This document shows, one piece after another, positions 3,181-37,959 of a stretch of DNA of 64,000 nucleotides. The notes under the pieces are model-generated. The model saw nothing but the letters and a program-made list of their open reading frames with translations, had not been told where the DNA came from and ran no database searches. A program made the translations under genes and the position numbers. The first letter of the stretch is position 1. The number at the start of each line of letters is the position of its first letter. This DNA comes from Rhodoferax sp. GTDB lineage: Bacteria; Pseudomonadota; Gammaproteobacteria; Burkholderiales; Burkholderiaceae_C. The stretch is from contig NZ_JAQTXM010000001.1 of assembly GCF_028688795.1 (NCBI RefSeq), positions 248,001 through 312,000 on the forward strand, read 5' to 3'.

Positions 3181-3326
3181 CGCACCGCACGCGACTGGCG
3201 ATAGGCAGCGCCCTGAAAAGGGGTGTGCTGCTGAAGTGGGAACACCACGGGGGAGCGTGCCGCAAAGCCCATTGCGGTTTTGTGATCAGCCGTTCGCCTG
3301 GGCACCTTAACCCACGTCTTTAAGGA
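3181..3326 (+). promoter_or_regulatory. ZTP riboswitch (pfl motif) controlling glyA
   Basis: The leader carries the conserved parts of the ZTP/pfl aptamer in order: GCGACTGGCG, GAAGTGGGAACACCAC, GGGGGAGCG, and the 3' core CCGTTCGCCTGGGCA. The known ligand is ZTP/ZMP (AICAR phosphates), which accumulate when 10-formyl-tetrahydrofolate is short. Control of glyA in one-carbon metabolism is a standard context. Directly 3' of the core, CCTTAA (3305-3310) can pair with TTAAGG (3320-3325), which contains the ribosome binding site. A translational expression platform is therefore likely. The aptamer call is strong; the switching mechanism is inferred. Confidence 0.92.
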
Positions 3327-31077: not shown

Positions 31078-32616
31078 TCACCCCTGCGCTGCCACCCGAT
31101 CAGCCTGGCTTTGAAGCTTGTTCAACGCACTCAGGTATGCCTTGGCTGAGGCCACAACTATGTCTGGGTCTGCACCCACCCCATTGACCACACGTCCACC
31201 ATGTTGGAGCCGCACAGTAACTTCACCCTGGCTCTCAGTCGACCCACTGATCGCATTGACGGAGTAAAGCACCATTTCAGCACCACTATTGACGTGGACC
31301 TCAATGGCTTTAAGCGACGCATCCACTGGTCCATTGCCATTAGCTGTACCCGTCACCTCCTTGCCGCCAATGGTTATGACCACCGTTGCCTGGGGCATTT
31401 CACCAGTTTCGCTGTGCTGTGAAAGTGACACAAAACCATAGTGTTCATTGCTTTGCGCGACGCTTTCCTCGCTGACCAAGGCCAGAATATCCTCATCAAA
31501 AATCTCGCTCTTTCGATCCGCAAGCTCCTTGAATTTAGCAAACGCCAAGTTGACTTCTGCCTCGCTGTCCATCTGGACACCAAGTTCTTGCAGTCGCTGC
31601 TTGAACGCATTGCGCCCACTAAGTTTGCCCAACACGATTTTGTTAGCTGCCCAGCCCACATCTTCGGCGCGCATGATCTCGTAAGTGTCACGAGCCTTCA
31701 TGATGCCATCTTGATGGATACCCGATGCGTGCGCAAACGCGTTCGCGCCTACGATTGCCTTGTTCGGCTGAACCACAAAACCAGTGGTCTGACTGACCAT
31801 ACGGCTTGCGGCCAAAATTTGAGAGGCATCGACACCCACCTCCAAATCAAAATAATCGCGCCGTGTCCGTATGGCCATCACCACCTCTTCGAGGCTGCAG
31901 TTACCGGCACGCTCGCCCAACCCATTGATGGTGCATTCGATTTGACGCGCACCACCAATCATGACTCCGGCCAATGAATTGGCAACCGCCATGCCAAGGT
32001 CATTGTGGCAATGTACCGACCAAATCGCCTTGTCCGCATTCGGAACGCGCTCACGCAAACGCTTGATAAAGTTTCCATAAAGTTCTGGGATCGCGTACCC
32101 GACCGTGTCTGGCACATTGATGGTCGACGCGCCCTCGTTGATGACCGCTTCAATAACGCGGCACAAAAAGTCTTCCTCACTGCGATAAGCATCTTCTGCG
32201 CTGAATTCGACATCGGCCACGCGGTTTCGTGCAAATCGCACCGCTTGTTTGGCCTGCTCCAACACTTGCTCTGGCGTCATGCGCAGCTTCTTTTCCATAT
32301 GCACCGGAGAAGTTGCGATAAAAGTATGAATGCGCGCCCGATTTGCATTTTTGAGGGCGTCAGCGGCCAGCGTGATGTCACGGTCATTCGCACGCGACAA
32401 CGAGCAGACAGTGGCATCCTTGATGGCAGTGGCAATGGCCTTGATCGCCTCAAAGTCACCATTGGAACTGGCGGCAAAACCTGCCTCGATCACGTCAACT
32501 TTCAGTCGCTCCAATTGACGTGCAATGCGCAACTTCTCATCGCGTGTCATGGATGCGCCTGGCGACTGCTCGCCGTCACGCAATGTGGTGTCAAAAATCA
32601 CTAATTTATCGGACAT
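31078..32616 (-). CDS. leuA: 2-isopropylmalate synthase
   Basis: This 512-residue enzyme makes the first committed step of leucine synthesis (acetyl-CoA plus 3-methyl-2-oxobutanoate). '[17 protein letters not shown]' is the HMGL-like start with the metal-binding Asp, '[16 protein letters not shown]' holds metal histidines, and the final ~130 residues form the LeuA regulatory domain for leucine feedback. GGAG lies 7 bases before the ATG. Expression is probably attenuated by the leader just upstream. Confidence 0.97.
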
Positions 32617-32667: not shown

Positions 32668-32700
32668 AAAAAAGCCCGTAGCGGCTGCATACGGGCTTTT
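32668..32700 (-). terminator. Attenuator terminator in the leuA leader
   Basis: On the minus strand AAAAGCCCGTA and TACGGGCTTTT form an 11-bp stem followed by T6. It begins 20 bases after the leader peptide stop and 51 bases before leuA. CGGGC within the leader codons (32732-32736) is complementary to GCCCG of the terminator's first arm, allowing a competing antiterminator. Confidence 0.8.
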
Positions 32701-32720
32701 GGGGTTGATGCGATCACACG

Positions 32721-32774
32721 CTAACCACTCCGCCCGACAGACGATAGTTTTAGTGCTAGTGAAATTTGATGCAT
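32721..32774 (-). CDS. leuL: Leucine leader peptide, transcription attenuator
   Basis: This 17-codon frame, MHQISLALKLSSVGRSG, is too short for the ORF track. All three leucines are CTA, a codon that is rare in GC-rich betaproteobacteria, and they sit in S-L-A-L-K-L. It ends just before a strong terminator and leuA. This is the design of a leucine attenuator: slow decoding of CTA at low charged tRNA-Leu would favour readthrough. No Shine-Dalgarno sequence is visible, and an extended -10 box lies 6 bases before the ATG, so the peptide may be translated from a leaderless transcript. Function is inferred from architecture. Confidence 0.75.
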   Translation of the reverse strand: MHQISLALKLSSVGRSG

Positions 32775-32780
32775 AAAATT

Positions 32781-32789
32781 AATATAACA
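32781..32789 (-). promoter_or_regulatory. Extended -10 promoter for leuL-leuA
   Basis: On the minus strand TGTTATATT gives an extended -10 element (TGn plus TATATT). No good -35 is visible at 16-18 bases. The transcription start is predicted at or next to the A of the leuL ATG. Confidence 0.5.
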
Positions 32790-32838
32790 CAAGTTCAGAG
32801 AGCCGCGAAACTTTGGAGCAAGTGGCTTGCCCCTCCAC

Positions 32839-37115: not shown

Positions 37116-37392
37116 GATGAACCTTTGTGAATTTCTCTGACGAAAAACCTTGGGTGCTTCTTTGCAAACACTTTTGGCGTTGCATCGAAACTTAAGGCCA
37201 AAACCATGAGCGCATTGATTTATGCGCCGGACCTTGACCCGTTTGCGTTATTGAGCAGCGAAGATTATCGCACTGTCCGTGGCGACCTCGACCACCTCTG
37301 CAGTGCAATAATCCCGGCCAGTCAAAAAGAACTCTGAACCAATCCACTGTACCTGAGCCACAGTTAACACTGACTCCAAGAAAACCTCTCCA

Positions 37393-37959
37393 TTGGCTAC
37401 GCCTGCTGAACTCTCGGATTTTTTGAAAAGTGTGGAAAAGCGCGCATTCAAACGTACGACTTATCACGTTCGCAATGACGAATCTGCTTTGGACATCGTT
37501 CAAGACAGCATGATGAAGCTCGCCGAACACTATGGGCACAAGCCAGTTAACGAGCTGCCCATGCTTTTCCAGCGCATTCTGTCTAACAGCACACTGGACT
37601 GGTTCAGGCGTCAAAAAGTTAAAAATGCACTTTTTTCATCCTTCAGTGACTTCCAGTCGGAGGGGGATGAGGAAGGCTTTGACATTCTTGAGGCACTTTC
37701 GGGCATTGAGCCTGTCGCATCATTTGACAACCCTGAAACCAATCACCAGCGCGCACAGACTCTGCTCGCGATTGAAGAGGAATTATTATTGCTGCCAAAT
37801 CGTCAACGAGAAGCCTTCTTGATGCGTTATTGGGAAGATATGGACGTGGCAGAAACCGCAACCGCCATGGGGTGTTCAGAAGGCAGTGTAAAAACCCATT
37901 GTTCGCGTGCAGTTCATGCCCTGTCCAAGGCCCTCAAAACGAAAGACATCAAATTATGA
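37393..37959 (+). CDS. RNA polymerase sigma factor, ECF-like
   Basis: This 188-residue sigma-70 family protein uses a TTG start. Region 2 is 'ALDIVQDSMMKLAEHYGHKPVNELPMLFQRILSNSTLDWFRRQK', and region 4 is 'LPNRQREAFLMRYWEDMDVAETATAMGCSEGSVKTHCSRAVHAL'. It lacks regions 1 and 3, as ECF sigmas do. The next gene overlaps its stop codon and encodes a single-membrane-pass DUF3619 protein, which could be its anti-sigma partner. The start is not supported by a strong ribosome binding site. Regulon unknown. Confidence 0.88.
   Translation: MATPAELSDFLKSVEKRAFKRTTYHVRNDESALDIVQDSMMKLAEHYGHKPVNELPMLFQRILSNSTLDWFRRQKVKNALFSSFSDFQSEGDEEGFDILEALSGIEPVASFDNPETNHQRAQTLLAIEEELLLLPNRQREAFLMRYWEDMDVAETATAMGCSEGSVKTHCSRAVHALSKALKTKDIKL

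Follow-up and report, generated by a model that had tools for sequence, protein, structure and literature searches.

A predicted leucine attenuator with an apparently leaderless leader peptide upstream of leuA in Rhodoferax and its relatives

Enteric bacteria provide the classical case of leu genes attenuated through a leader peptide: their leuL leader upstream of leuA carries a leucine-rich ORF and competing antiterminator and terminator arms. A 126-nt element that precedes leuA on the minus strand of a Rhodoferax sp. genome, between pssA and leuA, raises the question of whether leuA is controlled there by the same principle, from a leader peptide that begins at the very 5' end of the mRNA. 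The window analysed here is a 64,000-nt stretch (positions 248,001 to 312,000 of the contig) whose nearest named relatives are Rhodoferax, and a covariance-model search found a single copy of the element in the source genome. Read 5' to 3', the element consists of TTGTG-T-TATATT, AATTTT, the leader ORF, a 20-nt spacer and a terminator. The features, in window coordinates, are as follows.

32781..32792, minus strand: extended -10 promoter TTGTG-T-TATATT, with TTGTGnTAcAtT (near-)invariant in 77 loci; transcription predicted to start on the A of the leader ATG (32774) or beside it
32721..32774, minus strand: leader peptide ORF MHQISLALKLSSVGRSG, with the frame intact in 77 relatives and a CTA bias
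32739..32743, minus strand: segment 1 (CGTCT), with the potential to pair with segment 2; kept in some relatives only
32731..32737, minus strand: segment 2 (TCGGGCG), putative antiterminator strand
32691..32696, minus strand: segment 3 (GCCCGT), common to antiterminator and terminator; near-invariant in 65 aligned loci
32668..32700, minus strand: predicted intrinsic terminator (segments 3 and 4) with T6
31078..32616, minus strand: leuA (2-isopropylmalate synthase), the putative regulated gene; a 512-aa ORF, 82-95% identical to the leuA of relatives, with its Shine-Dalgarno GGAG at 32627-32624

The initial annotation had claimed a 17-codon frame with three CTA codons, a T6 terminator, a possible antiterminator arm and an extended -10 box 6 bases before the ATG, and all of these were recovered from the minus-strand sequence. 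The extended -10 box is TTGTGTTATATT (TG at 32789-32788, TATATT at 32786-32781), and exactly 6 nt (AATTTT) separate it from the leader ATG at 32774-32772. The ORF comprises 17 codons and a TAG stop (ATG CAT CAA ATT TCA CTA GCA CTA AAA CTA TCG TCT GTC GGG CGG AGT GGT TAG), and its CTA codons lie at 32759-32757, 32753-32751 and 32747-32745. The terminator reads AAAAGCCCGTA-TGCAGCCGC-TACGGGCTTTT and has a run of six T; in the reading of the full element it is written AAAAGCCCGTA-TGCAGCCGC-TACGGGCTTTTTT. The arm CGGGC (32736-32732) is complementary to GCCCG (32696-32692). The leuA coding sequence starts with ATG at 32616. A promoter and terminator scan with simple rules reported neither the leader promoter nor the terminator, since its rules miss a promoter that lacks a -35 and a terminator whose U-run lies largely within an A/U-extended stem.

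To place the element among its relatives, leuA homologues were collected regardless of whether a leader was present, which gave 111 loci; when distinct upstream regions were counted once, about 103 remained, and the arrangement was present in 77 of them. The leader ORF in these 77 loci is Leu-rich and mostly 17-18 codons long, starts with ATG in 76 and stops with TAG in 69. The distance between the -10 box and the start codon is 6 nt in 56 loci, 7 nt in 19 and 8 nt in two, so that 75/77 have 6-7 nt. In a promoter-blind search, 74 leaders with a terminator were found, and 70 of these have a -10 at 6-8 nt. Among shuffled upstream regions, 0.1% had an extended -10 placed 6-8 nt ahead of an ATG, as against 77 distinct homologous loci, which puts the element far beyond chance.

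A covariance model was built from 65 loci without enforcing the frame, and it matched 248 of 301 family genomes and 101 of 115 genera. Among hold-out loci absent from the model and parsed by the promoter/terminator pattern, an intact 17- or 18-codon frame was found in 49/49, with MNKISLALLLSPHGRRR-like peptides. Weak matches of the model elsewhere in the source genome and in distant families (next to efp in L139; terminator-only in L137) were rejected as generic terminators. The 27 regions without a leader call include several that are truncated or masked, about half in which the element lies further upstream, and some apparent losses. In Polaromonas, Variovorax, Ramlibacter and others, the element was found ~1.8 kb upstream of leuA and is separated from it by a second gene for isopropylmalate synthase (~579 aa; L036, L044, L051, L056, L058 and others); the leader thus keeps its place in front of both genes. 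No leader was detectable before leuA in the close relatives L207 (G226), L010, L014, L042 and L072, which appear to be losses. Within the source genome, no leader was found before the second leuA-like gene (L199), and inspection by eye revealed none like that of leuA before ilvB at 37116-37420. These results collectively show that the predicted design is a near-universal element of one large family. The initial annotation had hesitated over attenuation of leuA in Comamonadaceae; the attenuator reading is supported, and the breadth was understated, with the element family-wide and a related leaderless leucine ORF found order-wide (see below).

We then asked where the leader transcript begins. 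Across the 77 loci, upstream information content is flat until TTGTGnTAcAtT and then rises sharply, and no conserved -35 was found upstream of this motif. With a spacing of 6-7 nt, the predicted +1 falls on the first base of the leader ATG. The absence of a Shine-Dalgarno noted in the initial annotation was borne out by calculated duplexes with the anti-Shine-Dalgarno (+0.9 kcal/mol at the leader versus -6.4 kcal/mol at leuA), and a duplex stronger than -4.5 kcal/mol was found at 1/77 leaders versus 72/77 leuA starts. A leaderless leader is expected to lack a Shine-Dalgarno and to have its -10 at a distance from which transcription would begin on the start codon, and both were observed. At the level of sequence, the fixed promoter-ATG spacing and the lack of both a conserved -35 and a Shine-Dalgarno fit a 5' end at the AUG and are strong, if indirect, evidence for it. 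A Variovorax-like lineage (L044, L051, L056, L058, L065, L069, L077) has 9-10 nt between the -10 and the leader ATG, which predicts a 5' leader of 2-4 nt in place of none, still too short for a Shine-Dalgarno.

The element could also be an attenuator that is transcribed from further upstream, by read-through from pssA/ilv or from another promoter, so that the leader ORF has a normal 5' UTR and weak initiation. Such read-through is possible since pssA and the ilvB-ilvH-ilvC cluster precede leuA on the same strand. However, the promoter motif is conserved at a fixed distance from the ATG, conservation sets in sharply at TTGTG, and no Shine-Dalgarno precedes the leader, in contrast to leuA further along that transcript. 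Furthermore, in other families a -35, a 17-nt spacer and a -10 are found, with the -10 at 6-9 nt before the ATG. We regard an upstream origin of the transcript as unlikely. Taken together, the leuA leader mRNA appears to start at the leader AUG and to be leaderless.

To explore how the leader could control leuA, we examined its codons and RNA structure. CTA accounts for 193 of 339 leader Leu codons (57%) versus 0.7% of the 4132 Leu codons in leuA of the same loci. Within the ORF, insertions and deletions in the 65 aligned loci come in multiples of three. The Leu codons, the stop and the terminator, whose conservation had been proposed as a check, are kept in close and distant relatives. The terminator was found in 77/77 relatives versus 5% of shuffles; 98.9% of its cells are paired, two pairs covary (33 G-C versus 31 A-U; 49 A-U versus 13 C-G), and every shuffle scores below the observed covariation. 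For the antiterminator ACGGGC:GCCCGU, 95.4% of cells are paired, whereas slid versions of the pairing reach at most 49%; one pair shows a double change and the rest is invariance and wobble, so that support for the 2:3 pairing comes mostly from invariance and little from covariation. Some of the loci also have a small 1:2 helix (CGCCC-nnn-GGGCG), in which 78% of cells are paired and one pair shows a G-C/A-U double change, in six loci. The last Leu codon lies exactly 12 nt, or one ribosome edge, before GGG in 45 of 65 loci.

We next folded the nascent RNA, before the 3' arm of the terminator is made, in different ribosome states. When the last Leu codon occupied the A site, 2:3 pairing had a mean predicted probability of 0.87; the mean was 0.99 for the preceding Leu codon, 0 for the stop codon and 0.30 for RNA free of ribosomes. 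The corresponding values for the window were 0.94, 1.0, 0 and 0.98. Unlike in most relatives, the antiterminator of the window is thus predicted to win when no ribosome is present, and the 1:2 hairpin is weak; untranslated read-through RNA might therefore not terminate. At equilibrium, the terminator dominated in all ribosome states, and hence the switch must be kinetic and co-transcriptional, as in classical attenuators. In sequence, an attenuator is recognized by a short ORF rich in the amino acid of the pathway before a biosynthetic gene, an intrinsic terminator between ORF and gene, and a mutually exclusive antiterminator that is freed by a stalled ribosome and covered at the stop; all three were found at this locus, the third with slight covariation.

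From these features we infer translation, stalling and a response to leucine along the following lines. RNA polymerase would begin at the extended -10, giving a transcript that starts on the AUG or about one base away at most, and a 70S ribosome would initiate at this 5' AUG without Shine-Dalgarno pairing. When leucine is short, the ribosome would stall on the CTA codons with its leading edge just before segment 2 (ACGGGC; TCGGGC here), and the free segment 2 would capture the emerging segment 3 (GCCCGU), so that no terminator forms and leuA is transcribed. When leucine is plentiful, a ribosome at the UAG would cover segment 2, leaving segments 3 and 4 to form the terminator, and transcription would end before leuA. 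We consider it probable (roughly 0.87) that the element senses charged leucyl-tRNA through ribosome-mediated attenuation of leuA transcription and that its leader peptide is leaderless.

Two further explanations have to be weighed. Arrest of the ribosome by the nascent peptide, rather than charged tRNA-Leu, might control leuA, as peptide conservation extends past the leucines (the common form is MNKISLALLLSPHGRRR). However, the conserved C-terminal codons fall on the RNA strand ACGGGC, so that their conservation is accounted for at the RNA level, and the skew of the Leu codons to the rare CTA suits tRNA sensing; peptide arrest therefore seems very unlikely. It is harder still to believe that the ORF is fortuitous and the hairpin, which between pssA and leuA could just end the ilv-pssA transcript, is a terminator of upstream transcription or part of a constitutive leader with no leucine response, given that dozens of genera keep the reading frame with its start, its stop and its rare Leu codons, that ORF indels stay in frame and that a terminator arm is complementary to the end of the ORF.

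To determine how far leucine leaders extend beyond the family, regions upstream of leuA were sampled from one genome per family and then from about 100 more genomes of the order; the most upstream ATG was taken and the promoter was ignored. A Leu leader ORF was found before leuA in 61 genomes from 30 other families of the order (L175-L194, L215-L313), typically ending in ...LLLRPAR, LLLRLAR or LLLRGRAH. A -10-like box lies 6-9 nt before the ATG in 53/61 (3.4% in shuffles), and the promoter has TT at -36/-35, a 17-nt spacer and a -10 at about -13 to -8. A Shine-Dalgarno was detected at 1/61 leaders versus 58 leuA starts. In contrast to the window's family, where all 77 of 77 loci have one, an intrinsic-terminator-like structure was found in only 7/61. 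The first 15 nt past the stop are 51% C and 4% G, and the hairpins further downstream have no T-run. One genus (f10 g10) has, ahead of its only leuA-like gene, an element of the window's type with a terminator. The sample from other orders of the class (L314-L341) is small and its start codons are uncertain; in it, ~8 of 19 leuA leader ORFs carry a -10 box 6-7 nt ahead of the ATG, and many end in LLLP or similar.

Order-wide, the leaderless leucine sensor seems to be shared and its output not. Candidate outputs for leaders without a terminator would be termination by Rho or occlusion of the ribosome site of leuA. The chances seem to us even that leaderless Leu ORFs with +1 at the AUG are ancestral for leuA control throughout the order (Burkholderiales in the broad sense, and perhaps many other Gammaproteobacteria), with a terminator output only in lineages like Comamonadaceae and, in the others, an undescribed output tied to the C-rich, G-poor tract. 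These order-wide ORFs, which lie outside the coordinates of the element, are the most interesting consequence of the analysis, and those without terminators raise the question of how sensor and output have been swapped during evolution. A leaderless start would also bind regulation to one promoter, as the sensor is usable only by transcripts that begin at the AUG, and loading of the ribosome as soon as the first bases emerge would be a simple way to synchronize polymerase and ribosome.

No family in Rfam 15 matched the window element or the related leaders, and leuA leaders in these bacteria are thus probably unannotated at present. RF00512 (Leu_leader) gave no match in the window even at E 10 and none in 20 related loci at the gathering threshold. 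Sub-threshold Rfam matches, among them Thr_leader (23.4 bits versus a gathering score of 55), were judged to be chance. Elsewhere in the window, positions 3181-3310 (plus strand) match the ZMP/ZTP riboswitch (RF01750, 49 bits). RF02993 (ilvH RNA) matched near pssA/leuA of an Acidovorax relative (L006:19-86, 96.9 bits) and not in the window. Enteric leuL likewise combines a Leu-rich ORF with competing arms before leuA; however, the peptide of the window is shorter (17 aa), uses CTA codons, has its AUG at the predicted 5' end without a Shine-Dalgarno, and carries the antiterminator strand within the ORF.

Actinobacteria also have a leucine peptide before leuA. In Streptomyces lividans, a leaderless leuL1 precedes leuA, leuL2 precedes leuS, and others occur; leuL1 has no typical Rho-independent terminator (PMC8079986), whereas the element described here has a conserved intrinsic terminator with a competing arm. 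Actinobacterial leuA leaders accompany the LEU element, a pseudoknot that pairs the run of Leu codons with the leuA Shine-Dalgarno (PMC1262725), and a leuA leader peptide has been predicted in Corynebacterium glutamicum (PMC4046766). The same source cites a C. glutamicum ilvBNC leader peptide without a ribosome binding site, and PMC13236596 cites mycobacterial cysteine ORFs. Campylobacter jejuni has a LeuL before leuABCD with transcript-end support (PMC3847290), but its peptide is 20-35 aa, its relatives are predicted to have a ribosome-binding site, and it is not described as leaderless. Leaderless mRNAs occur in Burkholderia cenocepacia (PMC4603805). No description of a betaproteobacterial leuA leader was found in the openly readable literature searched. 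The principle is thus known, and the combination of leucine, terminator, leaderless start and Betaproteobacteria appears to be undescribed in that literature. The trpL RNA of Sinorhizobium meliloti begins with the ATG of its leader ORF (PMC7298713) and is likewise a leaderless proteobacterial attenuator, but it senses tryptophan, belongs to the Alphaproteobacteria and has no demonstrated sequence relation to the element. With the leuA leader, leucine would join the amino acids for which Proteobacteria have an attenuator with a leaderless leader peptide.
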